NCBI RefSeq assembly: GCF_007747655.1
Contig: NZ_CP036274.1
Coordinates: forward strand, 2,108,001 to 2,172,000
DNA from: Anatilimnocola aggregata
Lineage (GTDB): Bacteria; Planctomycetota; Planctomycetia; Pirellulales; Pirellulaceae
Reading direction: 5' to 3'
DNA length: 64,000 bases
Below the pieces are notes generated by a model that made no database searches, was not told the DNA's origin, and saw only the letters and a program-made list of their open reading frames with translations. The translations under genes were made by a program, and so were the position numbers. Below are positions 23,903-56,024 of the stretch, piece after piece (position 1 is the stretch's first letter; the number at the start of each line of letters is the position of its first letter).

Positions 23903-24525
23903 TTCCGCTTCCTCGTCACCTATTTCATTGCCAAAGCTGAGTCAAAGCTACTCCACGAACGACTTGCGGCCTGTCAGTCTAGCGCCTCGGCATCCGCCAG
24001 TTCCAAGGCGAAGCCCGAAGCCAACAGCAAACTTGGATCATTCCTGCAATCGTTCATGGGAAAAAAGCCCATGCCAGTCACCGGCGGAGTCGCGACTGCA
24101 CAGCAGCCTCGCACGGCACAAAAATCAAGCGACGAACGATCCCCAACGGTCGCGGTGGCCATCACTCCATCATGACCATCACCACCGGCCGAGCAAGCGG
24201 GCTGATGGCAATTGCCGGCTCGGTTCGGCTAAAAACGGTGAGAACTCTCGCAAAAAAGTGTAGAGTGTCATGACAAACAGCACGGTTGGGAACTCACGTC
24301 CGCCTACTCCACGTCGAGCCGGCCCTCCTGACGCCGTTGAAGCAACGCGGCTCGGCAAAGTAGTGAATCGCCTTCTTTCAGCAACGATCGCAGGCCGCCG
24401 CCGCATCTAACCGGATGATCCTACTAAGGCCGAGGCCAAGTATCCTCGTCAGGACTAAGGTAGACTGGACACTTCGACTCAAAGTCTGCGACCAGATCGC
24501 TTTCAATAAATGTTGGGTTGGATTC
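23903..24525. other. Divergent intergenic region with a dispersed-repeat copy
   Basis: This region separates the minus-strand PQQ-like gene from the plus-strand DUF1592 gene and should hold both promoters. Its only recognisable content is repeat copy A (24151-24285). An open frame runs upstream of the DUF1592 gene from 24415, but its translation has no signal or domain features. Confidence 0.4.
24151..24285 (+). repeat. Dispersed repeat, copy A (long form)
   Basis: About 135 bp align with 31631-31764 across the whole length: cGCGGTGGCCATCACT, TCATGACCA, CACCGG-CGAGCAA, GCTGATGG, GGTGAGAACTCTCGC and ACAGCACGG are shared or nearly so. By eye roughly four fifths of positions agree. The last ~50 bp correspond to the core that also occurs at 28561, 29018 and 31255. 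No conserved open frame runs through it. Confidence 0.75.
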
Positions 24526-28430: not shown

Positions 28431-28560
28431 GTGCGGTTAACGCTAAAAATGCCGTCGATCTGAGCTTCGATTCGGTTCAAGTTCCGAGAAACGTCGGTTA
28501 AGATCGTGACTTGTCTTACTCGTCGATAGGGACAGATGCAGCGCGTTGAATTCCTGCGGC

Positions 28561-28608
28561 GCAGTGTGTCACGACCTTCTGGAGTTTTCTGCGCGAGTTC
28601 TCGCCATT
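28561..28608 (-). repeat. Dispersed repeat, copy C (core only)
   Basis: These 48 bp are, apart from about two bases, the reverse complement of 31711-31761 in copy B, including CACGACCTTCTGGAG and TGCGCGAGTTCTCGCCAT. It lies 130 bp past the DUF1552 stop, in opposite orientation to copy A on the other side of the DUF1592-DUF1552 module. Confidence 0.75.
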
Positions 28609-28620
28609 CGCCAGCAAGTT

Positions 28621-31304: not shown

Positions 31305-31630
31305 CCGCTGGATCAAAATGCGATGGAAAAGCGACTAGCGACTCCTTTGGTCGGCAGCCACAATCGGGAGAATATCTAACACTTCAAAGCTGCCCCTCTA
31401 ATTATTCAAACCTGCGACCCGACGGTTAACAGCCCCAGATCCCAGATGCTAAAGAAAAGCCACATCAGCCCCGGCCGCCTTGAGCGACCGGGGCCGACTG
31501 GGACTTCTGAATCCGTCAGTCAGCCACGTGCGGTCGAACGAGGGACCCCTCGTTGGATGGCGCAGTGAATCTCCCGTGTTGTGCGGACCAGATTCCGGAG
31601 ACGGTGATCATAACGACGTTGCGTGCGAGT

Positions 31631-31764
31631 TGCGGTGGCCATCACTCGATCATGACCAACCCCACCGGTCGAGCAACCAGGCTGATGGAAATCGCCGCCT
31701 CGATTCGACTAAAATGGCGAGAACTCGCGCAGAAAACTCCAGAAGGTCGTGACACACAGCACGG
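31631..31764 (+). repeat. Dispersed repeat, copy B (long form)
   Basis: This is the second long copy, aligned over its full length with 24151-24285. Its right end, read on the minus strand, fuses directly to the coding sequence of a broken esterase gene (frame ...TSVAVLC then VTTFWSFLREFSPF), so the element appears to have truncated that gene. Confidence 0.75.
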
Positions 31765-32124
31765 CAACGCTCGTCGGTCGCTTGTCACCGAGCGCCGCTT
31801 TCACCTTATCCATCAGAACTTGGTAGAGATCGCCGTTGTTGACCTTTCGAGCAATTTCCTCAGCTCCTGCGGGCAGCGTCCATTTTTTGTGCCAGCGACG
31901 AATCGGCTGGCCGCTAATAGCATGCTTCACCACGATCACTTCATCGTCGGCGAATTCCTTGGTACGGCCGGCGTGAACGACACGTTGGGATCGAGGCCCG
32001 CCATATTCGATTGCCCCGAAAGAATGAACACCCGAACTTTCTTGTCAACCGCTTCGGCGGAAGAAAGACCGAGGAGTTATACAAAACCGAGGAAGAGAGG
32101 CAACGTAGGTTGTAGGCGGTGCAT
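31765..32124 (-). pseudogene. Decayed SGNH/sialate O-acetylesterase-like gene
   Basis: From an ATG at 32124 the frame gives a signal-peptide-like start (MHRLQPTLPLFLGFV), a TAA stop at 32077-32079, and then in the same frame the rest of the signal (LLGLSSAEA) and VRVFILSGQSNMAGLDPN. The last contains the GQSN nucleophile block of the SASA/DUF303 carbohydrate-esterase family. The frame then shifts, and the next frame continues with DDEVIVVKHAISGQPIRRWHKKW, also typical of the family, before running into dispersed-repeat copy B. One stop, one frameshift and the loss of the C-terminal half show a dead gene. Intact relatives remove acetyl groups from sugars. Confidence 0.8.
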
Positions 32125-35277: not shown

Positions 35278-35439
35278 TCGAATCGACGTGATAAGTCCTC
35301 GCAAGACGGTTTGGCAACCGGCTTTGATCCAGCGGTCTGGTGCGGCACTGGGATATGATGCCCCAGTTGCGGTCGTGGCTTCGGTAGCGGCTGCGACGAC
35401 ACCTCTAAGTCGTGTTGAAATTGCAGGTTAAGAAGATAG

Positions 35440-35466
35440 CCCCGGTGTCACAGCCGGGGTCTTTTT
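35440..35466 (+). terminator. Intrinsic terminator T1
   Basis: A CCCCGG...CCGGGG stem followed by TCTTTTT. It lies 162 bp after the sulfatase stop. The 30 bp from 35430 (AAGAAGATAGCCCCGG onward) are repeated exactly at 35944, next to the following small gene, so T1 belongs to the duplicated unit. Confidence 0.8.
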
Positions 35467-35504
35467 CGTTCTTGCCATGCACTGTTGTCCAGTTTTTTTC
35501 GACC

Positions 35505-35609
35505 CAAACTCCGGCCGCCAAAGATTTCAAAAATACGTGGCGGGTGCTCCTGACCGTTTGCGGGCTAAGTGTGACGAGGCGAATGACGCTTCGAAAAACA
35601 AACACTCAG
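35505..35609 (+). promoter_or_regulatory. Conserved 105-bp leader, copy 1
   Basis: These 105 bp match 38023-38127 with only three substitutions and no gaps, ending about 16 bp before the start codon of each small secreted protein. A short stem (AGGCG/CGCTT) is possible near its end. Promoter, untranslated leader or both; no sigma-70 boxes are obvious. Confidence 0.7.
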
Positions 35610-35625
35610 ATTTGGAGTCCTGACC

Positions 35626-35922
35626 ATGAAACTTGCAACTCTCGCCGCGTCCCTGGTTGTTGCCGCTGTCGCCCTGATCGCCGTCCAATCGGCTTCTGCT
35701 CAAGGATACGGTGGTTTTCAACAAAGCTACTCCACGGGTTACGGCTGCCGCCCAGCCCCTTACTGCCCACCCCAGTTCTGCCCGCCGCAATATGGCCGGC
35801 CTTACTGCCCTCCAAGCTTCCAGCCCAACTGCTACCCAAACTGCCCGCAGCCTTGGTGCGGTACCGGGATGCAACGCCCAAATTACGGTTACGGCTTCAG
35901 TGGCGGCTACGGCAACCCCTAA
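35626..35922 (+). CDS. Small secreted Cys/Pro/Tyr-rich protein (copy 1)
   Basis: The 98-residue product has a signal peptide (MKLATLAASLVVAAVALIAVQ, cleavage after ASA) and a mature part of about 73 residues rich in Cys, Pro, Tyr, Gly and Gln: repeats such as PYCPPQFCPPQYG and FQPNCYPNCPQPWC, then a Gly-Tyr tail. Nine or so cysteines suggest extracellular cross-linking by disulfides. It shares signal peptide, leader and CPPQYG/CPPSF motifs with the gene at 38144-38482. No known family comes to mind; a structural wall or spore-coat-like role is inference. Terminator T2 follows 29 bp after the stop. Confidence 0.8.
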   Translation: MKLATLAASLVVAAVALIAVQSASAQGYGGFQQSYSTGYGCRPAPYCPPQFCPPQYGRPYCPPSFQPNCYPNCPQPWCGTGMQRPNYGYGFSGGYGNP

Positions 35923-35951
35923 GTTGTTTCTGAATCACAAGCTAAGAAGAT

Positions 35952-35981
35952 AGCCCCGGTGTCACAGCCGGGGCTTTTTTT
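35952..35981 (+). terminator. Intrinsic terminator T2, group IIC intron insertion point
   Basis: AGCCCCGG pairs with CCGGGGCT and is followed by a run of T. It ends the first small gene. The group IIC intron begins with the next base, as expected for class C introns, which home to the 3' side of terminator hairpins. Confidence 0.88.
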
Positions 35982-36504
35982 GTGTTTGCCAGGCATGTTT
36001 GCCAATTCGAGGGTGGAAGTCCCTTATCCAACCTGATGGAGGTGAAGGATCAGCGAAGCGCAAGGGCGTCGCGGTGACGCGGGGTTTGAAGGAAGCGTGG
36101 AGCAAAGTCGCGGCCTGACGCACAGGAATCGGATCGTAGGCAGTACCGGTGGGACGAGCCGCCACGAAACGGCGAAGTCCTCCATCCATCGAAGGCCGGT
36201 GCTGTAAATCCGGCGGGCGTGCGACGAAGGTTGTCAAACTTAACCTGGGAGGTCTGGCGTGTGTTTGGGAGGAACAGCCTTGCTGCTGCGACCCGAACTG
36301 ATTGCTTCGCAAGGAGCGATGACCGCACGTCAGAAGTCAGCCGAGGGCATAGTAGGCGGGTGCCGCCGATCCGCTTGAGCGGGACACTGACTCGAAAGAG
36401 CAGAAACGGCCTGGGCTCACACGATCGTCGCGGTCCGTCCGAAGGCCCGAACGGTACCTCGTGCTAAACGAGGTAAATGGAGTGGCAAGTAAGTCCGAGA
36501 ACTC

Positions 36505-37893
36505 ATGGGCAGCAAACGGCAGAAAAACCAGACGCAGCAGACACAACTGCTGCTGGCCTTTGCGGGGGAAGCTGGGAGTGAATCTCCGAGCGCCCGCGAC
36601 GAAGGGACCGTGCTGTCTGCGGCGAACTTGAGCACTGAACGCCCGACAGGTAGTGATCGGTTGATGGAGTGCATCTGCGACGCATCCAATCTCAACCAGG
36701 CGATTGCGAAAGTAATTGCCAACGGTGGCGCTCCCGGCGTGGATGGAATGCGTGTGACGCAACTCGAAAAGTATTTCGAGCGTCACCGCGACCGGATCGT
36801 CGGCGGGTTGCTCGCTGGGACGTATCGGCCTCAGCCGGTAAAGCGTGTGGAGATCCCTAAGCCCGACGGTGGAGTGCGTAAGCTTGGCATTCCGACGGTG
36901 GTGGATCGCGTGATCCAGCAGGCGATTCTTCAGGTGCTTTCACCGCTCTGGGACGCGACGTTTTCGGAGCACAGTTTCGGCTTTCGGCCGGGCCGGTCGG
37001 CTCACCAGGCAATCGCCCAAGTCCAGCAATATCTGGAGGAGGGGTACACCTGGGTCGTCGATTTGGATCTGGAGAAATTCTTCGACCGCGTGAACCACGA
37101 CGTGCTGATGAGCCGCGTGGCTCGGCGTGTGGAAGACAAACGACTGCTGAAACTGATTCGTGCCTTCTTGAACTCGGGAGTGATGATTGAGGGGCTAACC
37201 GAGGCGACTCCGGAAGGAACGCCGCAGGGAGGCCCGCTCTCACCGTTGCTCTCGAACTTGCTGCTGGATGAACTGGATCGCGAGCTTGAGTCTCGCGGCC
37301 TGCGTTTCGCCCGCTACGCCGATGACTGCAACGTGTACGTCAAAAGCCAGCGGGCGGGACAACGTGTTCTGCAAAGCGTGACTCACTGGCTGGCCACTCA
37401 GCTCCGGCTGACAGTCAACCAGACGAAGAGCGCCGTGGACCGCCCTGGGAAACGCAAGTTCCTGGGGTTCACGTTCGCCTCCAGCAAGAAGCGGAGCATC
37501 GCACCTTCATCGCGAGCGAAGTTCAAGCAGCGAATCCGGCAACTGACCAAACGTAACCGGGGCTCGTCCTTGGAACGCGTGGTCAGCGAACTGCGCAGTT
37601 ACTTGCTGGGTTGGCGAGGCTACTTCGGCTTCTGCCAGACCCCATCGGTGCTGCGTGACTTCGACAGTTGGATTCACCGTCGGTTGAGATGCTATGCGTG
37701 GAAGCAATGGCGGACTGGCCCACGCCGGTTCGCTGAACTGCGAAGGCTGGGAATCGGCAAAGACCTTGCCGCTCAAACCGCCGGCAGCCGCAAAGGCTAC
37801 TGGCACCTCAGCCGCAGCCCCGCGCTGGGAATTTCGCTCACCCGAGCGTACTTCGAGGCGCTGGGCCTTCCGATGCTCTCCCCAACAACCTGA
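36505..37893 (+). CDS. ltrA: Group II intron reverse transcriptase/maturase (class C)
   Basis: The 462-residue protein contains all reverse-transcriptase blocks: GAPGVDGM, RVEIPKPDGGVRKLGIPTV, FGFRPGRSAHQA, VVDLDLEKFFDRVNHD, GTPQGGPLSPLLSN and the catalytic YADD at residues 271-274, then RKFLGFTF. The maturase (X/thumb) domain follows, with RLRCYAWKQW and LRRLGI in the last hundred residues, as in class C relatives. There is no HNH endonuclease domain, which is normal for this class. It splices its own intron RNA and copies it into new terminator sites. No stop or frameshift is present. Confidence 0.95.
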   Translation: MGSKRQKNQTQQTQLLLAFAGEAGSESPSARDEGTVLSAANLSTERPTGSDRLMECICDASNLNQAIAKVIANGGAPGVDGMRVTQLEKYFERHRDRIVGGLLAGTYRPQPVKRVEIPKPDGGVRKLGIPTVVDRVIQQAILQVLSPLWDATFSEHSFGFRPGRSAHQAIAQVQQYLEEGYTWVVDLDLEKFFDRVNHDVLMSRVARRVEDKRLLKLIRAFLNSGVMIEGLTEATPEGTPQGGPLSPLLSNLLLDELDRELESRGLRFARYADDCNVYVKSQRAGQRVLQSVTHWLATQLRLTVNQTKSAVDRPGKRKFLGFTFASSKKRSIAPSSRAKFKQRIRQLTKRNRGSSLERVVSELRSYLLGWRGYFGFCQTPSVLRDFDSWIHRRLRCYAWKQWRTGPRRFAELRRLGIGKDLAAQTAGSRKGYWHLSRSPALGISLTRAYFEALGLPMLSPTT

Positions 37894-37912
37894 ACCACCC
37901 GTTCACCCAGCC

Positions 37913-37987
37913 GAACCGCCGCGGTACGGACCCGTATGCCCGGTGGTGTGGGAGGGGCAGAGCCGAAAGGCTCTCCCCTATCCCGAT
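37913..37987 (+). ncRNA. Group II intron domains V and VI
   Basis: GAACCGCC pairs with GGTGGTG around an inner stem GGTACGG/CCGTATGCC, the catalytic domain V of class C type (CGC triad). Domain VI is a GC-rich stem with a GAAA loop (GCAGAGCCGAAAGGCTCT) and an unpaired A in CCCTATCCC as the likely branch point. Confidence 0.78.
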
Positions 37988-38022
37988 TGTTGCCGTGGGC
38001 GGTTGTCCCGTTTCCTCCCGAT

Positions 38023-38127
38023 CAAACTCCGGCCGCCAAAGATTTCAAAAATACATGGCGGGTGCTGCTGACCGTTTACGGGCTAAGTGTGACGAGGCGA
38101 ATGACGCTTCGAAAAACAAACACTCAG
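38023..38127 (+). promoter_or_regulatory. Conserved 105-bp leader, copy 2
   Basis: This is the second copy of the leader at 35505-35609, with three substitutions in 105 bp. It starts 35 bp after the intron end and stops 16 bp before the start of the second small secreted protein. Confidence 0.7.
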
Positions 38128-38143
38128 GTTTAGGAACTTGGCC

Positions 38144-38482
38144 ATGAAGCTCGCATCTATCGCCCTGTCGCTCGTCGTTGCTGTGATCGCCCTGGTAGCC
38201 GTCGAATCGGCGTCCGCTCAGGGCTTTGGCGGGTACTCCTACAGCTGGTCGAGTGGTGGCAACTGCCAGCCTGGTTTTCAGCAGAACTGCTCGCCCTACG
38301 GCCAACCCAACTGCCAGCCTGGGATGGGCCTGTACAACCGACCTGTGTGTCCACCGCAGTACGGCATGAACCCCGGCTACTGCCCGCCGAGCTTCCGGCC
38401 TTCTGGCCAGCAGATGACGCCCCACTGTGGCACCGGCATGACACCTCGTCAGCACAGCATGGGATACGGCTACAACCCGTAG
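38144..38482 (+). CDS. Small secreted Cys/Pro/Gln-rich protein (copy 2)
   Basis: The 112-residue product starts MKLASIALSLVVAVIALVAVE, a signal peptide nearly the same as in copy 1. An ATG two codons earlier is in frame but leaves less room for the AGGA ribosome site. The mature part has NCQPGFQQNC, PNCQPGMG, RPVCPPQYGMNPGYCPPSFRP and a tail with GMTPRQHSMGYGYNP. It is clearly related to the protein at 35626-35922 but has diverged widely after the signal, in contrast to the almost unchanged leader. Function unknown; an extracellular cross-linked protein is inferred from composition. Confidence 0.8.
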   Translation: MKLASIALSLVVAVIALVAVESASAQGFGGYSYSWSSGGNCQPGFQQNCSPYGQPNCQPGMGLYNRPVCPPQYGMNPGYCPPSFRPSGQQMTPHCGTGMTPRQHSMGYGYNP

Positions 38483-39369: not shown

Positions 39370-42300
39370 CTACCGTCCGCGGTGTCGGAACTGCAGTTTC
39401 GCGGCGGGTTGCATGATACCACCCCCTGCGCTACGCAAGTTCCGCTCTTGATCCGCCATCACCGCTTGTAAGGCGGCAGTCCACACATCGTCGTCTGCAA
39501 CATCGTGGGCAGTGGCCACCGCTGCGAGTGTTTGTTCGTCAACATGCTGTAGGTGAATTGCCTGCCGTGGATCGGCAATGCCCTGTGGATTTCCGTCTGC
39601 GGAGTTGAGCGCGAAACTGAGTGCTGCGGACTGTTGTCCCGATAAGCGGCTGACAGCACTTGAGTATTCGTACACTCGATCGGTGCCAGAATCCACGATC
39701 CAAATGTGGTTGACGTCGTTCGGATCGATGGTCAAGCCAGTCGGATTGCGATTGGTGGCGTCGATTTGCCAGCTTCCTTGCCATGCGCCGGATAGTGAAT
39801 AGCGAAATACCTTGTCCACCGAGTTGGTATTATTCACTACCCACAGATGCGCGCCATCCGTCGTTACATCAAACGGATCGCGATTGCTGACCGCAAGGGC
39901 GAAGTTGGATGTCGCCTTCACACTGCCACTGCGCCGCGCGGCGGCACCCGCAAAGAGAAATATCCGATCGGTTTCGCGATCGACGATCCAGAGATCAGTG
40001 CCGTTCGTGGCGATTCCTTCCGGCTTGTCGATGCCTTTGGTTTGCCACTGACCGAGAAGACGACCACTCTGGTCATGCACAAACACCTTGCCATCTTTGT
40101 CGACGACCCAATAGACGGAACCGTCCTTGTTGGCCGCAACACCCCGCGACTCCTGAGCCTGCTTGTTGAGTGAGTGCCGAACGACCAAGTTGCCGGCAGC
40201 ATCGTAATTGAAGGTCTGGTCGGCCGTCGCATCGACGACGATAAACTTGGTGTCGCTGGTGGTGGGCAACGTTTTGACATCGATTGTGACCGTAACCAGA
40301 TTGCCGTTCAGCAGGCCGTCGCTGGCGAGGTAAGCGAAGGAATCGATTCCGGAAAATCCAGTTCGCGGCGTGTAGGTGAACGAGCCATTGGAATTGAATA
40401 CCAGAGTTCCGTTGGCCGGATTTGTGGACAAGGCAGCAGACAATGAATCACCATCGACCTCGCGATCGTTTGCCAGCACACCGGTTGTTGCAGGGACCGG
40501 GAGCGCAATGCCTTGATTAGTTTGATAGCCATCGTTAACGCCGACCGGCGGGTCGTTGACCGGTGTCACTGTGATGCTCACTGTGATCAGGTTGGAATCG
40601 GCCGAGCCATCGTTGGCGCGATAAACAAAGCTGTCGGCCCCGTTGTAATTCGAAATCGGGGAGTAAACGAACGAACCATCGGGATTGAGCATCAGCGTGC
40701 CATGACTGGGACCGCTCACCAGAATCGCACGCAGCGTATTGCCATCCACATCAACATCGTTGCTCAACACACCGCCGGCCATCACTGCCAGGAGAACGTC
40801 TTCAGCCGTTGAATAGACTTCCCCGGACGCAATCGGTGCGTCATTGACGGCAATGACCGTGAGATTCACCGTCGTGATCGCCGAATCCAGTGTTCCGTCA
40901 TTGGCCTGGTAAGCAAAGCTATCCGGGCCGTTGTAGTTAGCAGTTGGAGAGTACGCGAACGAACCGTCAGGATTCAACGTTAATGTGCCGTGGCTGGGAC
41001 CAGCAACAAGCACGGCCGTTAGCGTGGCACTATCGGCATCTGTATCGTTCGCCAAAACGCCATTCGTGATGATCGACAGTTGGGTATCTTCCGCAATCGT
41101 ATACGAATCCACGCTGGCCAGCGGCGCAGTGTTCACCGGCGTGACGGCTAGGCTCACCGTGACGATATTGGAATCCGCAACGCCGTCATTCGTTTTGTAA
41201 GTGAAGCTGTCAGTGCCGTTGTAGTTGGCATTCGGCGAATAGCTGAACGAACCATTTGCGTTTAGAGTCAACGTGCCATGGCTTGGCCCCGTTGCGAGAA
41301 CGGCCGTCAGTTTGCCCCCTTCGATATCTGTATCATTGCTTAGCACTCCGCTCACAGCGATGGTGAGCGAAGCATTTTCGGCCGTCGCGTAAGAGTCGGC
41401 AGTTGCCACGGGAGCGTCGTTCACACTCGCAAGTGAAATAGTAAAAGTCTGCACTGCGCTCGTATCGATTCCGCCATTGGCAGTGCCGCCGTTGTCATGC
41501 AACTGCACTATCACTGTCGCGGTTCCAAACGCATTTGCTGCTGGCGTGAAATTGAGCGTGCCATCGGCGGAAACAGTGGGCTGAACGCTGAAGAGCGAAT
41601 TGCTGTCATTGCTGACTAGGAAGTTCACCGATTGACTTAATTCGCTGGCGGGACCGGCGCTGATAGCCGTTGCCCAGGCTACGATCGACTGCAGTCCGGA
41701 ATCCTCGGAAACGCTAACATTGCCGCCGCTGACAAACGAGGGGGCCACATTGATTACTTCGATGCTCGAAGCATGTGCGCCAAAGTCATCTTCGTACTCG
41801 ATCTCGCCTTCTTCCAGATCTTCAAATTCATAGCCATCGCCGGGAACAGGAGTTCCGATCACCACGGGAATTGAGCCCAACACAACGTTGGTTCCAGCCC
41901 GTACGAATTGCAGGTCGAAGCGATGTGGAATGCCATCGCCGACGAACTCGAAGTCGAAGGAAGCAGTGCTACCAGCGCTGAGGCCGCGCAGCGTGCCGGT
42001 GTGGTTGACAATGCGAACTCGTGGATCGGAGGCTTGCAATTCAATATCAACGGCGACATTAGTCACTGCGTTTTGAATAGCACTCGTCACGCCATTCGCC
42101 ACACTAGCGCCAAAGCCGGAGGCAATCTGAAAATAGAGTGGGTCACCCGGAGCAATGGGGTCTGCCGTGCCGTTGGCGATCGTTGCCGTCGATTGATTGG
42201 TTGCACCCGTGAGTTTGGAGATGGCCTCCAGTCCCTGTCGCGGGTCGATCGTCGCTTGCGGATTGGTGCCCAGGCCGATGACGAGCGCACCCAACGCATT

Positions 42301-45300
42301 CAAGCCCGTGATCGTCTGTTGAATCCCCGCACCGTTGTTGAACGGCGTAGTGGGGCGTGATGTTTGTGTGAATGCAGAGACGGGTAACGTCAGACCGCCC
42401 AAGCCTGTGACCGATGTTTCGCCCTGCGGTTGATAGGCAAAGCCGATATCCGTTGCCAGCAGAATGATGGGCAACGCACCGGCGCGAAAACCTGCACCGC
42501 CTAAACTGCCCGCGGCCGGCATCACAGAATTGGCAGCGTCGGCCGTGAAGGACGCAAAGGAGGGAACGTCACCGCTGCTGCCCGGATTGAGTTGCGTCGC
42601 CGCCAAACCTGCGCGGCCGCTATCAAGCACCGAGCCGTTGTTGTTGCCGTCGAATCCTCGTCCGGTCACGAGTTGATAGAGCGCTTCAATGTCGGTCTCA
42701 GGTCCATCGCCGCCGTATCCTGGTGTTGTGCGATTCAGCGCCGCTTGAATGGCGGTTAAATAGCCCGTGGTGCTGGCCGCCACGATAGGCTGATTCAGAG
42801 TGAACGGCCGTCCGGTCGCATATTCCGAAGCGAAGTTGGCATACTCTTCGAGACGTCCCACGCCAAAGCCAAGATCAATGCCTGGCAACGAAGTCTGCAA
42901 CTGCGAAATGATGCTGGGAAAGGCGGACCGAACGATCGGGCTGTTGTTCACAAAGCTGCCAGTGTCATCGAACAGCAGAAACACGTCCACCAGGTTCGTT
43001 AGCGCACCCGTATCTGGAAGCGTGAGACTTACCGTCTGCCGATGGCTCGCACCGATTGCCAGCGATGTCGTGATGCTCGGTGGGTTGACGTTGCCCACCG
43101 CGGGATTGCTGACTCCACTCGGCCAGAGAATACCGCCGACCGTAGTTGGCGAAGTTTGGGTGTAACCAGCAGAGATGATTTCGCGAACGATATATGCGCC
43201 TGGCGTCAGGTTGGTGAAAGTGTACGAGCCATCGGCCGACGTCATCGTGCTGGGTTCGTCAGCGTCATGGATGTCATCCCGGTCGAGGTCAACATAGATG
43301 GTTGCGCCACCCACTCCCATTTCACCTGCGTCGCGCACATGATTTCCGTTGGCGTCATCAAAACGGGTTCCATGGATTTCGTTGGCGCGATACACAGACG
43401 CAAAATCAACGCCCGACTGACCAGCAGCGGTGATTGTCACCACATGCTCCCGTTCGGCGGCCGGCGTGGCACTCAGAGTTGCTGGAACAACTTGCCGAAC
43501 GGAGTACGTGCCGCTGGCCAGATGCGTGAAGCTGTAAGTACCCGCCTCATCGACTCCCGGGGTGTAGTACAAATCGACGGATGTTTGAACCTCTGGCTCA
43601 CCGACGTCGAGTGTCGCACTGTTGTTGAGATCCAGATATACGGTGACTCCACCGAGGCCGCGCTCACCGGCGTCTCGCACTTGATCACGATCTGAATCAG
43701 CGAACACCACGCCACGAATGCTGGAATCCCTAATCTCGGCTTCACCAAAGTCGAGTCCACTGACGGTATCGCCACTACGCAGGGCAACTGTGCGAGAGTT
43801 CGTGAGCGGTGCTGTTGCCCGCCAGCCAGTGGTGGGCTGCACATAAATGGTGATAGTCCCAGGCAGAATGCCGGGTAGCGTGTACGAGCCATCTGCAGCC
43901 GAGGTCGCCTGGGGCTCGCCGACGCTCAAAAGCCGATCGGAATTGAGGTCCGCATAGACTGTCCAGCCTGCGAGGCCCGGATCAGTGAATTCGCCCGTCG
44001 TCGCATTGACGTTACGTATTCCGTTAGAGTTGATGTCGTTCCAAACAGTTCCGCGCAGCGATCCCGGTGTCGCAACTGCGATGTTGTAATTGGCGAAGTC
44101 AGGAGCAACCGACTCAGCACCAGAATAGACAACGACCGATTCGCTATCGCTAAAAGTGCTCGCTGCTTCCCAGCCGGTTGGCAGAACTTCGATCACTTGA
44201 TACTCGCCAACTTGCAGATCGGCAAACAAGTAGTTCCCCGCAGCGTCGGTGAGCGTCGTTGGCTCTGTTGCATCCGCGACTCGATTGCGATTCAAGTCGA
44301 GATAGATGGTCCAATTCGCGAGTCCGGGATCCAGATAGGCACCCGTGATCGTACTGACATCGCGCAGACTGTTGCGATTGAGATCATTCCAGACGGTTCC
44401 GCTAATCGATCCGTTGAGCGATGTGAAGTTGGCAAAGTCATCCGCCGTCGACACCTCACCACCATTGACTGCCACGGTTTGGCGGGAATCGAAAGTCGGC
44501 GATACGCTCCAACCGCTGGGTAAAACTTCGGTGACTTCGTAATCGCCAGCATCCAAACTAATGAACGCGTAGTTGCCGTCCGTATCGGTTACCGTAGAGA
44601 GTTCGCCGACATCCAGCGCACGATTATTGTTCGCGTCTAAAAAGACGGTCCAATCCGCGAGGCCAGGCTCGGTGAACTCACCGGTTGTTGGGTTCGTCTC
44701 ACGGACTCCATTGGCATTGGTGTCGTTCCAAATCACTCCCTGGATCGAACCGTTCGTCATACTGAAGTTGGCAAAGTCCTGCACCACTTGTTCGCGAGCG
44801 ACGACACTGGCAGTCTGCCGAATGTCAAAGCGGGAAGGAACATCCCAACCCGCAGGCAGAACCTCGGTCACCTCATAGTCATCCGGCGGCAATCCGACGA
44901 ACGAATAGCTGCCATCCGCCGCAGTGACCGTTGCTGGTTCGCCAGCGCCTAGCGCTCGATCATTATCAAGATCCAAGAATACGGTCCAACCAACGAGGCC
45001 CGGTTCTGTAAACGCGCCTGAGACTGGATCCGTTGCGCGGATGCTGTCTTGATCGAGATCGTTCCACACAGTCCCCACAATGTCGCCGCCGCTGAAGTTG
45101 AAAAAGTCAGCTTGGGTGCTTTGACCTTGAGTAACGATTACATCCTGGGAAACCGGAGCCGTCGCGGTCCAGCCACTTTGAACCACCTCACCGACACGGT
45201 ACGTATTGGGAACCAGGCGATTGATCCTGTAGTCACCGTCGACATTCGTGACTGCTGATGGCTCTTGCGTCCCCGCCGCATCGTTGTTCAACGTGCCGCT

Positions 45301-45576
45301 ATTGTCTAAGTCGAGATAAACCGTCCAGCCTGCGATGCCGTTCTCGCCGCCGTCGCGCACGCCGTTGGAATTGACGTCTTCGTAAACAGTGCCGCTCACG
45401 GCGGTGTTCGCCGTTCCTTGCAGAACATCGGCCACTAGCATGGCCAGCAGCGAACGCCCTTCCAAGTTTTCCAGCGACAGAAAGCGGCGGCGTTTGTTGT
45501 TGCGTGTGCTACTGGATTTCGAACCGCGATTCTTCTTGGGGCTGTTGGCCATCAACAGAGAGACTGGGGCGTTCAT
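39370..45576 (-). CDS. Giant multidomain secreted adhesin (SdrD-B, VWA-like, cadherin-like, propeller)
   Basis: From the ATG at 45576 (AGAGGAA ribosome site; an ATG 33 codons upstream is rejected) the product has 2068 residues. A basic stretch and FLSLENLEGRSLLAM at about residues 30-45 form a planctomycete LExLExR-LLA type N-terminal signal. Then come seven SdrD-B-like repeats (each GTVWNDLNxNxxRD...GWTVYLDLN), a VWA-like domain (VDVFLLFDDTGSF), an Ig-like segment, four cadherin/VCBS-type repeats (GVLSNDxDxD...GPSHGTLTLNxDGSFxYSP...NYNGxDSFxYxxNDG) and a C-terminal NHL-like propeller. The Asp-rich loops predict Ca2+ binding. It is probably an adhesion or matrix protein. No C-terminal sorting signal is obvious. 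Confidence 0.9.
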   Translation of the reverse strand: MNAPVSLLMANSPKKNRGSKSSSTRNNKRRRFLSLENLEGRSLLAMLVADVLQGTANTAVSGTVYEDVNSNGVRDGGENGIAGWTVYLDLDNSGTLNNDAAGTQEPSAVTNVDGDYRINRLVPNTYRVGEVVQSGWTATAPVSQDVIVTQGQSTQADFFNFSGGDIVGTVWNDLDQDSIRATDPVSGAFTEPGLVGWTVFLDLDNDRALGAGEPATVTAADGSYSFVGLPPDDYEVTEVLPAGWDVPSRFDIRQTASVVAREQVVQDFANFSMTNGSIQGVIWNDTNANGVRETNPTTGEFTEPGLADWTVFLDANNNRALDVGELSTVTDTDGNYAFISLDAGDYEVTEVLPSGWSVSPTFDSRQTVAVNGGEVSTADDFANFTSLNGSISGTVWNDLNRNSLRDVSTITGAYLDPGLANWTIYLDLNRNRVADATEPTTLTDAAGNYLFADLQVGEYQVIEVLPTGWEAASTFSDSESVVVYSGAESVAPDFANYNIAVATPGSLRGTVWNDINSNGIRNVNATTGEFTDPGLAGWTVYADLNSDRLLSVGEPQATSAADGSYTLPGILPGTITIYVQPTTGWRATAPLTNSRTVALRSGDTVSGLDFGEAEIRDSSIRGVVFADSDRDQVRDAGERGLGGVTVYLDLNNSATLDVGEPEVQTSVDLYYTPGVDEAGTYSFTHLASGTYSVRQVVPATLSATPAAEREHVVTITAAGQSGVDFASVYRANEIHGTRFDDANGNHVRDAGEMGVGGATIYVDLDRDDIHDADEPSTMTSADGSYTFTNLTPGAYIVREIISAGYTQTSPTTVGGILWPSGVSNPAVGNVNPPSITTSLAIGASHRQTVSLTLPDTGALTNLVDVFLLFDDTGSFVNNSPIVRSAFPSIISQLQTSLPGIDLGFGVGRLEEYANFASEYATGRPFTLNQPIVAASTTGYLTAIQAALNRTTPGYGGDGPETDIEALYQLVTGRGFDGNNNGSVLDSGRAGLAATQLNPGSSGDVPSFASFTADAANSVMPAAGSLGGAGFRAGALPIILLATDIGFAYQPQGETSVTGLGGLTLPVSAFTQTSRPTTPFNNGAGIQQTITGLNALGALVIGLGTNPQATIDPRQGLEAISKLTGATNQSTATIANGTADPIAPGDPLYFQIASGFGASVANGVTSAIQNAVTNVAVDIELQASDPRVRIVNHTGTLRGLSAGSTASFDFEFVGDGIPHRFDLQFVRAGTNVVLGSIPVVIGTPVPGDGYEFEDLEEGEIEYEDDFGAHASSIEVINVAPSFVSGGNVSVSEDSGLQSIVAWATAISAGPASELSQSVNFLVSNDSNSLFSVQPTVSADGTLNFTPAANAFGTATVIVQLHDNGGTANGGIDTSAVQTFTISLASVNDAPVATADSYATAENASLTIAVSGVLSNDTDIEGGKLTAVLATGPSHGTLTLNANGSFSYSPNANYNGTDSFTYKTNDGVADSNIVTVSLAVTPVNTAPLASVDSYTIAEDTQLSIITNGVLANDTDADSATLTAVLVAGPSHGTLTLNPDGSFAYSPTANYNGPDSFAYQANDGTLDSAITTVNLTVIAVNDAPIASGEVYSTAEDVLLAVMAGGVLSNDVDVDGNTLRAILVSGPSHGTLMLNPDGSFVYSPISNYNGADSFVYRANDGSADSNLITVSITVTPVNDPPVGVNDGYQTNQGIALPVPATTGVLANDREVDGDSLSAALSTNPANGTLVFNSNGSFTYTPRTGFSGIDSFAYLASDGLLNGNLVTVTIDVKTLPTTSDTKFIVVDATADQTFNYDAAGNLVVRHSLNKQAQESRGVAANKDGSVYWVVDKDGKVFVHDQSGRLLGQWQTKGIDKPEGIATNGTDLWIVDRETDRIFLFAGAAARRSGSVKATSNFALAVSNRDPFDVTTDGAHLWVVNNTNSVDKVFRYSLSGAWQGSWQIDATNRNPTGLTIDPNDVNHIWIVDSGTDRVYEYSSAVSRLSGQQSAALSFALNSADGNPQGIADPRQAIHLQHVDEQTLAAVATAHDVADDDVWTAALQAVMADQERNLRSAGGGIMQPAAKLQFRHRGR

Positions 45577-45685
45577 GGTGAATTCCTCTGACACAGGTGT
45601 AGAAAAGTGGGCATGGCGGCACTGACATGCTGAAAACGGAAGTACATTCGACACCCGAAGAATATTGAGAATCACTTTTTAAAAA

Positions 45686-52943: not shown

Positions 52944-53160
52944 ATGTCCATGTCCCGCATTTTGGTCTGGGACCTTCCGACCCGGCTATTTCACTGGTTT
53001 CTGACCTCGGGACTTGTTGCTTGCTTTGCGTTCGCCCAATTGTCAGGCGAACACGGTACTTGGTTCTCTGCACATATGCTTGTCGGAATCATGCTTGGCT
53101 TGATGCTTCTGATGAGGGTGGCTTGGGGCATTATCGGAAGTAAATATGCTCGTTTCGATT
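52944..53160 (+). pseudogene. b-type cytochrome (cytochrome b561/hydrogenase-subunit type), truncated by IS21
   Basis: The frame encodes ILVWDLPTRLFHWFLTSGLV, a first membrane helix with the haem-ligand His, then SGEHGTWFSAHMLVGIMLGLMLLMRVAWGIIGSKYARF, with a second His and helix. This is the first ~70 residues of a four-helix b-type cytochrome. It then runs into the left end of IS21. Sequence on the far side of the IS (55789 onward) does not continue the protein, so the rest is lost or moved. The function, electron transfer through the membrane, is gone. Confidence 0.85.
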
Positions 53161-53194
53161 GTAAACGACGGTCGAATAGTGCAGCGCGCGGCGG
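53160..53194. repeat. IS21 left terminal inverted repeat
   Basis: The exact inverse of 55754-55788. It begins TGTAAACGACGGTCG and includes GAATAGTGCAGCGCGCGG. Confidence 0.93.
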
Positions 53195-53263
53195 TTGAAA
53201 AGTGTGGCGCTGAGGTGGGGAAGGGTCTCAGTCTAAATCAGGGTGTTGGGGCATTCCAGTAAG

Positions 53264-53293
53264 AATCCTTCCTCCTCCGGAGGAGGAAGGATT
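53264..53293. repeat. 30-bp perfect palindrome inside IS21
   Basis: AATCCTTCCTCCTCC is followed at once by its exact reverse complement, 20 bp past the istB stop. It may act as a terminator or as a shield against outside transcription; there is no T run. Confidence 0.85.
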
Positions 53294-53312
53294 GCGACGG
53301 TTGTAACGACGG

Positions 53313-54134
53313 CTAGGATTCTGCCGTTTCATCGGCGGGTGACAAGGATGAGGTCGCCGGTTTCGGGCGCGATCCTTTGCGGCGGCGCCGCGCGTCTTGC
53401 AAGCGATAACTTTCGCCGGTCGATTCGAGGATGTGGCAGCGGTGTGTCAGCCGATCGAGCACGGCGCCGGTCAGGCGCTCGCTGCCCAGGACTTCGGTCC
53501 ATTGCTCGAACGGCAGATTGGTGGTCACGATCAACGATTGGCGTTCGTAAGCGCTACTGATGACCTCGAAGAGCAACTCCGCGCCCAGCTTACTGGCGGG
53601 GACGTAACCCAGTTCATCGAGGATCAGCAGATCGAACTTGGCTAGTGACGACTTCATCCGCAGCAGCGTCCGTTCTTCTCGGGCTTCCATAAGTTGCGTG
53701 ATCAGTTCCGTCACGCGGCAGAAGCGGACCCGTTTGCCCCGCTGACAGGCGGCAATGCCAAGCGCGATGGCCAGGTGCGTCTTCCCCGTGCCCGGATGCC
53801 CGAGAAAGATCACCGACTCGCGGCGTTCCACGAACTCGCACCGCAGTAGTTCTGCCACCAGCACGCGATTGAGCGAGGGCTGGGCGGCGAAGTCGAAATC
53901 ACCAGGCGATTTCAGGTTGGGAAAGCGCGCTGACTTGAGCCGCCGCTCGCTGGCACGCTTCTCACGGTTGAGTAACTCCAGCTCACACAGTTGCAGCAGA
54001 AAGCCCAGATGATCGACGTTCTCCGTCGCACACCGCTGGGCCGTTTTCTCGCAGCCCTCCAGGAACGACGGCAACCGTAGGGCCTTCAAGTGATGCTTGA
54101 GCAGCACCGTGCTTTTGGTTTCGAGAGATTTCAT
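53313..54134 (-). CDS. istB: IS21-family ATPase helper protein IstB
   Basis: The 273-residue AAA+ ATPase has Walker A GHPGTGKT at residues 112-119, Walker B FDLLILDELGY, sensor VTTNLPF, and a conserved end (GAVLDRLTHRCHIL). IstB binds DNA, selects the target and stimulates IstA. Its ATG overlaps the istA stop in ATGA, so the two are translationally coupled. The length is normal for the family and no defects are seen. Confidence 0.96.
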   Translation of the reverse strand: MKSLETKSTVLLKHHLKALRLPSFLEGCEKTAQRCATENVDHLGFLLQLCELELLNREKRASERRLKSARFPNLKSPGDFDFAAQPSLNRVLVAELLRCEFVERRESVIFLGHPGTGKTHLAIALGIAACQRGKRVRFCRVTELITQLMEAREERTLLRMKSSLAKFDLLILDELGYVPASKLGAELLFEVISSAYERQSLIVTTNLPFEQWTEVLGSERLTGAVLDRLTHRCHILESTGESYRLQDARRRRKGSRPKPATSSLSPADETAES

Positions 54135-55645
54135 AACACACCTCCCGTCGTCAGCGCGCAGGTCAGTTCACGGTAAGACAGGAGATTGGGAGGAGGGATC
54201 GAGTGCGACTGCAGATGCGGATGATTGTCCAGCCGAAACCACCGCGTCGGCTCTTCCAGTCCCTGCTGCACGAGCAGCCGAATCGCATCGACGGCCAGAA
54301 CGTCGATCTCCAGTGCCCGCTCAATCGCCGCAGTTAATGCAGCCAGCGAGATAGTCTCCAGCAGCCGCAAGGTTTTGATGAACTCCCGGCGGCCGTGTGC
54401 GCCGCCATCTGCTTCCAGACGCCGCCGGAGGAGATCGAAACAGTCCGGCAAGCCCCAGTTTTCCAGGGGTTTCGCGAAGTCCAAGCCCCCTGGCTTCCGC
54501 TCCAAGAGTGCCAGGTAATGCAGCGGGTTGTAATGGACCTGCTCCTTCGACCAGTCGCGTGGATGCTGGGCAACCAACTTGTCGTTAACGACCAGCCGAA
54601 CTTCCTCCAGGCCGCCAATTGCGGTCACTTTCTGATGAGCATACTGCGTCGGCACCGAGTAATCGTTGCCGTCGAAGCGAACCAAGGAAAGAGAGTTGGC
54701 CTGGGCCGGTTCGACTCGCCGCGCTTCAAAGCCCGACTTCGGCAGCGGCAACAACGCAGCCTGCTCCTCTGCCAACAACGTGGCTTTGTTCGCCGGTTGT
54801 CCGCGTAACTGGCGTTCCAGATCTTCACAGCACTGCCGCTCGAGTTCGGCATTCAGCACTTCCAGGCTGCCGGTCCGTGGTACCGGCACCAGGAAGTTCC
54901 GCCGCGCGAAACCGATGAGGTTCTCCGTATGCCCCTTCTCCATCGGCCGTCGCACCAGGCAGAAGTGATGCTCAAACAGATAATGACTCTGCAGCCGTAG
55001 GAACTCACGCGTCGGCGTGTCACCCCGTTTCCCCACGAACCGGGCCACAGCAATCCGGCTGTTGTCGTAGCTGATCCGGCGGGGCACGCCGCCGAAGAAC
55101 TCAAAGGCCCGCTGATGGCCCGCTTGAAACGTCTCGGTGCATTCGCGAGGAAAGACCTGCACGAAGAACGCGTCGCTGTACGGCAACGACATGACGCAGT
55201 ACGCGACTTTCGTCGGCATGCCTTGCAGCACCACCTCCGCTTCGCCGAAGTCGAACTGGGCTTCGCCCGGTTGATGCGACAAGGGTAAGAACACCTCCGC
55301 CGTGGTCGTTCGCCACTCCCGCACGACCTCGCCGACCACCGTGATCCCGCCGGTGTAGCCATGCTCGGCACGCAGGCGGTCGAAGATCCGTTTAGTGGTG
55401 TGGCGCTGCTTGCGGGGCGCCGTTTTGTCCTGCTCCAGGATCTCGTGGATGATCGGCAGGAACGGATCGAGTTTGGGCCGCTCCCGGGGCAGACGTTGTC
55501 GATAACCGGGCGGCTCAGGGTGCTGCAGGATCTTTTCGAGGGTCTGCCAGTGAAGGGAAAATTCCCTGCAAACCGCTCGTTTGGATTTCTTCTCGGTCAG
55601 GACAAGACGACGGATTTCGGTCCAGTTATGCATATCTCGCAGCAT
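54131..55645 (-). CDS. istA: IS21-family transposase IstA, full length
   Basis: The 504-residue transposase has an N-terminal helix-turn-helix (KSKRAVCREFSLHWQTLEKIL region), a DDE integrase core with AQFDFGEAEVV (first Asp), ISYDNSRIAV (second Asp) and KGHTENLIGFARRNFLVP (Glu), and a C-terminal beta-barrel/basic region (SLVRFDGNDYSVPTQYA). It cuts and joins the element ends. Its first 222 codons are the same as those at 1-668. Confidence 0.96.
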   Translation of the reverse strand: MLRDMHNWTEIRRLVLTEKKSKRAVCREFSLHWQTLEKILQHPEPPGYRQRLPRERPKLDPFLPIIHEILEQDKTAPRKQRHTTKRIFDRLRAEHGYTGGITVVGEVVREWRTTTAEVFLPLSHQPGEAQFDFGEAEVVLQGMPTKVAYCVMSLPYSDAFFVQVFPRECTETFQAGHQRAFEFFGGVPRRISYDNSRIAVARFVGKRGDTPTREFLRLQSHYLFEHHFCLVRRPMEKGHTENLIGFARRNFLVPVPRTGSLEVLNAELERQCCEDLERQLRGQPANKATLLAEEQAALLPLPKSGFEARRVEPAQANSLSLVRFDGNDYSVPTQYAHQKVTAIGGLEEVRLVVNDKLVAQHPRDWSKEQVHYNPLHYLALLERKPGGLDFAKPLENWGLPDCFDLLRRRLEADGGAHGRREFIKTLRLLETISLAALTAAIERALEIDVLAVDAIRLLVQQGLEEPTRWFRLDNHPHLQSHSIPPPNLLSYRELTCALTTGGVL

Positions 55646-55753
55646 GGGCTACGCTCGCGGATCGTAAGGCTTGAGACGCTGGGAAGCCTCAAATCTGCCT
55701 TACGGATTCTCACGAGCAGGGCTAGCGCTGCACTTTTCGACCGACCATCGGCT

Positions 55754-55788
55754 CCGCCGCGCGCTGCACTATTCGACCGTCGTTTACA
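55754..55788. repeat. IS21 right terminal inverted repeat
   Basis: The exact inverse of 53160-53194, and the same as 777-811 of the other copy. Confidence 0.93.
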
Positions 55789-56024
55789 GACGCAATCAAT
55801 AGCCCAAAAGGGATGATCGAACCCCCTCTCTGTAGGCCGAATTGCCGCAAACTAAAGAAAAGTCACTTTGTCCACTGGCAATTTATAGAGCCCCTCTTTA
55901 TAGTCGGATTCGTAGGCATACTCTGCGCATTTTAGCCCAGCCAACCCAGTACACACACGCCGAGTTTGAGAGTAACGGCTCAGCCTAGGCGAAACACACC
56001 TCTCTCACTAGCCTTACCTCTCCC

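Follow-up and report, generated by a model that had tools for sequence, protein, structure and literature searches.

The stretch of DNA analysed here, termed the window, comprises 64,000 nucleotides (nt) of the Anatilimnocola aggregata genome (NZ_CP036274.1, positions 2,108,001 to 2,172,000, forward strand) and contains two genes for small exported-type proteins, A and B, each preceded by a leader that carries a promoter-like module followed by a hairpin. Gene A (35626–35922, + strand) encodes a protein of 98 amino acids (aa) with a signal peptide recognised by eye and a mature part rich in Pro, Gly, Tyr and Cys (20.8% Pro, 9.7% Cys). Gene B (38144–38482, +) encodes a 112-aa protein, also with a signal peptide by eye, whose mature part is rich in Gly, Pro, Gln and Cys (16.3% Pro, 7.0% Cys). 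Searches with both proteins returned nothing in Pfam or NCBIfam at E ≤ 1, and an A/B protein profile gave no match below E = 0.1 among PDB sequences.

The leader of gene B occupies 38023–38143 (+). Pattern matches and alignment place in it a putative promoter module, TGGCGGG-N13-TTACGGGCTAA, at 38056–38086 (+), and folding, symmetry, alignment and pairing tests place a hairpin at 38093–38111 (+). Gene A is preceded by a B-type leader (35505–35604, +), recognised from diagnostic alignment columns and from the comparison of 35505–35609 with 38023–38127 (3/105 mismatches). Its putative module, TGGCGGG-N13-TTGCGGGCTAA, found by pattern matches and gapless alignment, lies at 35538–35568 (+), and its hairpin at 35575–35593 (+), with a core stem of 35575–35580 with 35588–35593 supported by symmetry, alignment and pairing tests; its letters are identical to those folded in leader B.

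Upstream of the intact gene A sits a decayed remnant of another A-type gene, its 3' end and terminator (35338–35494, +; blastn, 75% identity over 157 columns with 35854–36007, which spans the same parts of gene A), including a terminator-like stem at 35439–35460. A stem search placed an intrinsic-terminator-like stem 3' of gene A itself at 35952–35975 (+). A group II intron (36068–37987, +) lies between the terminator of A and the leader of B, outside any gene, so that A and B were probably closer neighbours once. Its coordinates are the span of the Rfam matches, with exact ends not fixed: D1D4-3 at 36068–36239 and D1D4-1 at 36299–36364, both above the gathering score, and Intron_gpII at 37914–37987 with 30.4 bits, below the gathering score of 40. 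The intron encodes a reverse transcriptase/maturase (36505–37893, +) with the Pfam domains RVT_1 and GIIM above cut-off.

Paralogue types and the near-identical leaders

The two leaders of the window differ at three of 105 positions (35537, 35549 and 35560) with no gaps, exactly as reported in a preliminary description of this DNA, and lie within a wider repeat of 281 nt that is 78% identical. The signal-peptide codons of A and B differ at 19 of 78 positions in the window, and the proportions of synonymous (pS) and nonsynonymous (pN) differences between the two genes are 0.67 and 0.26. A DNA search of the same genome (9.0 Mb, one contig) found seven leader-gene matches, and a profile of the seven proteins returned the same seven genes: four of A type (the window, 1.857 Mb, 5.361 Mb and 7.318 Mb) and three of B type (the window, 5.362 Mb and 7.323 Mb). 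They form A-B pairs at three loci, and the A gene at 1.857 Mb is unpaired. At 7.32 Mb, about 4.2 kb (L010:8281–12526) containing a transposase-like gene and a gene for 752 aa separates the two members of the pair, and there the A terminator stayed beside B. The terminator-stem sequence of the window's gene A is found again before the B leader at both other A-B loci and behind the unpaired A gene.

Within the A type (four copies) pN is 0.03–0.06 and pS 0.08–0.29, and within the B type (three copies) pN is 0.00–0.03 and pS 0.08–0.15; between A and B, over all copies, pS reaches 0.57–0.69. On these distances A and B are old paralogue types, with the protein conserved within each type. Because pN is well below pS within a type, the mature proteins are not fast-changing, contrary to what had been proposed. 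Compared with the leader of the window's A, those of the other A genes are changed at about one position in five, even if the coding sequences are near-identical: against the 7.318-Mb copy, 9 of 219 positions differ in the mature part, 7 of 31 in the promoter, and the remainder of the leader up to CTCAG has 9 mismatches and 6 gap columns. The statement that the leader is more conserved than the genes therefore applies to the pair in the window and does not hold in general.

The window's gene A was then compared with the three other A genes and the three B genes over 157 alignment columns (gap columns included) at which the two types are fixed differently. All 15 diagnostic columns up to 35604 are of B type and all 140 from 35610 are of A type; the other two match neither type, one at the far 5' end and one inside the gene. 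The result is a single breakpoint at 35604–35610 (unstranded), B-type to the left and A-type to the right, as in a recombinant tandem pair. Judged from these columns, the window's A gene bears a B-type leader through recombination, and the 3/105 likeness is mainly due to this inheritance. In a spacer alignment, the order of remnant and then leader ahead of this gene is the order found ahead of the B genes at the other loci. In the simplest history, unequal exchange would have turned an A-B tandem into A'-spacer-A-spacer-B, and A' would then have decayed. Identity between the regions upstream of A and B is 102/105 (97%) in the leader, 60/75 (80%) in the terminator block and 30/44 aligned positions (68%) in the stretch between them. 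The leader is thus closer than its surroundings, which suggests that some constraint or later conversion acted on it.

The image of a variable peptide family under a frozen leader consequently gives way to peptides conserved within type and a likeness in the window that is mainly recombinational. Two findings had been named in advance as speaking against a regulatory element: a leader occurring nowhere else, and a duplication or gene conversion of the segment. The leader does occur elsewhere, and the second comes close to what was found, a B leader standing before an A gene.

A two-block module upstream of exported-type genes

A first covariance model (R1), built from seven sequences, identified an eighth site at 298 kb, before a gene termed C that encodes 169 aa with a signal peptide and is not a relative of A or B. 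Over 149 genomes, R1 matched in the window's genome (G000) only. Comparison of the leaders led to a two-block module, TGGCGGG, 13 nt and TTRCGGGCTAA, with a hairpin centre 16 nt further 3'. The pattern TGGCGGG-N10..20-TTTRCGGGCTAA had seven matches in G000, every one with a gap of 12 nt, and none in the reversed control. With the 13-nt spacing fixed and up to two mismatches, ten matches were found in G000 and one in G001, the congener and sole other species of the genus compared; this pattern is blind to other spacings, and the pattern with a gap of 10–20 nt found one spacing only. At up to three mismatches the totals were no higher than in the reversed control (G000: 33, 23 of them with exactly three, against 33; G001: 23, 22 with three, against 34), and the cut-off was therefore set at two. 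The three-mismatch sites inspected (23/23 in G000, 14/22 in G001) fall mostly within long open frames. Two such sites, L076 and L108, lie 104 and 108 nt before starts of exported type and were excluded from the count.

The eleven sites with up to two mismatches all point in the sense direction, and the first T of TGGCGGG lies 73–94 nt before the start codon. Each of the eleven downstream proteins is of exported type by eye, with a signal peptide or, in the case of gene D, an LEDRRLLA-type export signal. Four of the eleven genes (C, D, E and F) fall outside the A/B protein profile. Gene D lies at 759 kb and scores 22.1 bits with PF07595, below the cut-off of 25.5; gene E (273 aa) lies at 5.359 Mb, with an A-B pair about 2 kb away; and gene F (298 aa) is in G001. 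The leader search of the genome and its relatives suggested in the preliminary description thus yielded further copies, and those with up to two mismatches all stand before exported-type genes.

Outside the genus, a second model (R2), built from the eleven modules, was run on 40 related genomes. Its best two matches, with E-values of 3.6e-5 and 0.0019, both fell in G009, which belongs to a different genus of the family; they were not used in building the model. Both precede signal-peptide proteins that look alike by eye, and G009 is taken from these matches to be a genuine extension of the module. The shared element proposed before secreted Cys/Pro-rich peptides accordingly retains its regulatory look, and it also stands before six exported-type genes unrelated to A and B; what falls away is the variable peptide family.

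The exact N13 pattern had 14 scattered matches in a collection of 84,980 species genomes, one per record and none titled planctomycete; G001, which has an exact match, is absent from this result and was thus either not in the collection or left out. The A/B protein profile gave weak matches in two other genomes only (L013 and L012), neither with a module. The likeness of L013 is by eye confined to the signal peptide, and L012 is a different small Asn-rich protein, so both were rejected as A/B relatives. An A/B protein scan of the genome contigs collection found no relative.

The spacing of the two blocks was compared with known promoter types. A housekeeping sigma-70 promoter was rejected: between 35250 and 38700 there is no site with TTGACA and TATAAT 16–18 nt apart, with 0.8 expected in shuffles. 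Sigma-54 promoters have GG and GC dinucleotides 10 nt apart. Here the distance from the GG of TGGC to the GC of TTGC is 19 nt, and six of the 11 rows have A in place of the G of TTGC; this type was rejected as well. Two conserved blocks at fixed spacing, as in promoters of the extracytoplasmic function (ECF) type, are present in all eleven genus members (N13), an arrangement that other promoter types also fit. A fixed spacing at a near-constant distance from exported-type starts looks like a promoter.

The hairpin downstream of the module

In the 40-nt stretches 3' of the module, leaders A, B, C, E and F share their best symmetry axis, 16 nt after CTAA, and the stem letters at this common axis vary (CGAAGC/GCTTCG in A, CGGGTC/GACCTG in E). 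The axis score summed over A, C, E and F exceeded that of all 3000 shuffle sets, each taken at its best axis (p = 0.0003, the floor of the test). The same value was obtained with D added, and random relative shifts gave 0.0003 and 0.0007. A MAFFT alignment of the 65-nt modules from all eleven sites was gapless. In this alignment, 76.1% of pair cells form standard pairs; the value for shuffles is 66.6%, and sliding the partners by 1–3 columns leaves no more than 47.7%. The covariance analysis that had been proposed gave a covariation of 0.295, compared with at most 0.123 when slid, and both sides change in five of the eight pairs. With the two G009 leaders added in a structure-fitted alignment, 76.7% of cells were paired and covariation was 0.322. 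A conserved stem-loop independent of the stem letters, as expected of a stabilising element, is therefore present in the leaders, D excepted. Rfam 15 gave no leader match in the window (E up to 1) or in a set of eight loci; a match to isrL at 35896–35980 (14.3 bits, E 0.63, gathering score 35) overlaps the end of gene A.

Interpretation of the leader

Starting from the observed copies of the module, their spacing, their position before exported-type genes, the covariation of the hairpin and the breakpoint, the leader may be read as a non-housekeeping promoter joined to a 5'-terminal hairpin that protects the mRNA of surface and exported proteins, a reading given a rough probability of 0.58. 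The leader would be a transcription-start cassette in which TGGCGGG and TTRCGGGCTAA are the two promoter contact blocks, held at fixed spacing and probably recognised by an alternative, ECF-like sigma factor, the type of sigma being a guess. Transcription usually starts 6–8 nt beyond the -10 block, here presumably CTAA. RNA starting about 6–8 nt after CTAA would open at the foot of the hairpin. The stem-loop would be kept for its shape and position, not for its letters, and would shield the 5' end from decay, with a ribosome site further downstream. The cassette would serve a small set of exported proteins that includes the Cys/Pro/Tyr-rich A and B, which may belong to the wall or matrix. That the leaders in the window are nearly identical would be a local accident of unequal recombination in the A-B tandem, by which a B leader came to stand before an A gene. 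On this evidence the regulatory element appears real and wider than had been claimed.

Several observations weigh against this promoter-hairpin reading. Protein C has six homologues elsewhere, and upstream of every one the module is absent on both strands; the sole module at these loci is module F in G001, downstream of the homologue. Leader D has no hairpin at the common axis. Nine of the 11 rows lack pair 37/57 and five lack pair 44/50, and at least as many further pair types as observed arise in 33 of 500 shuffles. The axis was picked from the very sequences tested, and seven of the eleven rows are A/B relatives, so that the support from pairing is strong but not independent. Folding energy by itself is weaker evidence: it beats shuffles (p < 0.05) in three of nine leaders (A, C and the G009 leader G009_a) and not significantly in D, E, F, G009_b and the two leaders from a further genome, G033_a and G033_b; the combined p is 0.0014 for the nine leaders and 0.07 for the four from other genera. 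Outside the genus, the pattern with up to one mismatch had 3 matches compared with 13 for the reversed control over 148 genomes, and thus the plain pattern alone shows nothing there. A third model (R3), which includes the G009 pair, gave 16 matches at E ≤ 0.05 in 241 family genomes, G000, G001 and G009 being left out of the count, where about 12 are expected by chance. Finally, that the module acts as a promoter, which type of sigma reads it, where the RNA starts, that the mRNA is protected and that the proteins have a role in the wall are all deduced from sequence. Five of the 16 R3 matches (two in G033, two in G249 and one in G061) precede signal-peptide or LExxRxLA-type proteins; L161 was recognised by eye and the other four by a crude automatic rule, with a likelier start at 142 nt for L162. 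The same rule accepted 3 of 27 weaker R2 matches with loci and none of 14 three-mismatch matches of G001. G033 is likely to be an extension of the module.

The likeness of the leaders might be a mere trace of recent duplication and gene conversion of A and B, with no regulatory meaning. The window itself invites this explanation, with a B leader before A, one clean breakpoint and a decayed A end upstream, as do the A-B blocks at three loci and the six module-free homologues of protein C. It nevertheless appears improbable: the module also precedes C, D, E and F, none of them an A/B gene, and two genes in another genus, its spacing is fixed within the genus, and the hairpin stems have changed yet remain on one axis. 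Nor is the DNA 3' of the module, taken as 3' leader and signal-peptide DNA, significantly like that of A in E (p = 0.14), F (p = 0.57), G009_a, G009_b or G033_b. It is borderline in C (p = 0.016) and D (p = 0.034) and similar in G033_a (p = 0.002). Shared signal-peptide DNA as the source of the leader likeness is thus unsupported for E and F and borderline for C and D.

Other explanations accept the leader as an element of its own and assign it a different nature. An inverted repeat whose place relative to the presumed -10 block is fixed would also be expected of a DNA operator for a dimeric regulator overlapping the transcription start. One regulator is expected to need common letters, however, and the arms differ among A, C, E and F; leaders B and E depend on G-T pairs, which suit RNA and not DNA symmetry. 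Stems that change their letters yet keep their place and pairing point to an RNA shape and not to a protein-bound DNA repeat, and the operator is considered unlikely. Little greater weight is given to a cis-acting regulatory RNA (a thermosensor, a protein-binding hairpin or the target of a small RNA) that tunes translation, although the 5' region ahead of the ribosome-binding region is structured and short hairpins can act as switches. The leaders have no Rfam match, their loop letters vary, the hairpin ends some 27–38 nt short of the start codon (in D about 17), and the longer pairings that reach the region of the start codon in some copies require CGGGCTAA, upstream of the presumed RNA start. 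Least probable, and very much so, is a mobile cassette, a small repeat element inserting before genes; dispersed loci and the other short dispersed repeats of the genome would suit it, but 11 of 11 copies with up to two mismatches have the same orientation and a near-equal distance to the start codon.

Elsewhere in the window, an open frame of 2101 aa (39370–45675, − strand) encodes a repeat-rich surface-type protein with a stretch, SLENLEGRSLLA, resembling a planctomycete export signal; within the window, model R3 placed no module upstream of it. A two-gene insertion element at 53160–55789, resembling IS21 (istA/istB-like), has inverted ends of 35 bp and an exact partial copy of 812 bp at 1–812, the left edge of the window. 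Short dispersed repeats of the size of miniature inverted-repeat transposable elements occur at 31687–31769, 28542–28609, 24149–24285, 31629–31764 and L010:7438–7520, and one pair of them, between the window and the 7.32-Mb locus, is 98.8% identical. A tandem repeat block with copies 67–77% alike occupies 62312–63269.

ECF-type regulons have two short conserved blocks at fixed spacing before sets of envelope and exported proteins. The module described here resembles them in its two-block spacing before an exported-protein set; it differs in that TGGCGGG and CGGGCTAA were not matched to a known sigma factor, no search for a cognate sigma or anti-sigma factor having been made. That 5' stem-loops stabilise messages is stated in a passage of a review (PMC7509114) citing Emory et al. 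1992. As that passage presents the ompA-type stabilisers of E. coli (Emory, Bouvet and Belasco 1992), they share with the present hairpin a stem-loop at or near the 5' end, here a predicted one, and messages for envelope or exported proteins. The present hairpin differs in being tied to a specific promoter geometry and common to unrelated genes, with a presumed stabilisation and a predicted start. Planctomycete exported proteins with an RRLxxExLExRxLLA signal are described as PF07595 in an excerpt of PMC8567305. The protein encoded behind leader D is similar to these, and in other genera a motif of this kind occurs in the proteins that follow three of the weak matches; the remaining clear members, namely A, B, C, E, F and the G009 pair, have ordinary-looking signal peptides. 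A planctomycete cell envelope protein is characterised in part of another source (PMC3035269) as proline- and cysteine-rich and held by disulfides. The mature parts of A and B resemble it in composition, the Pfam and NCBIfam searches having given no sequence link to any wall protein, and by this analogy a role of A and B as wall or matrix proteins is plausible.

Among the open-licence papers listed, titles and abstract openings contained no start-site mapping and no such motif for planctomycetes. Planctomycete promoters are seemingly little known, and the module provides a specific promoter that can be tested and has an RNA shape built in, along with a list of exported proteins as its targets, some of which are candidates for the wall or matrix. 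A leader that seems more conserved than its gene can stem from recombination between paralogues and yet hide a real regulatory element. A more tentative and rather doubtful extension is a surface-protein regulon spanning the family, in which TGGCGGG-N13-TTRCGGGC would always be coupled to a 5' hairpin selected for shape and would serve both signal-peptide and LExxRxLA-exported proteins. If this were true, the switching of wall or matrix building and the stabilisation of its messages would go together as a single unit.

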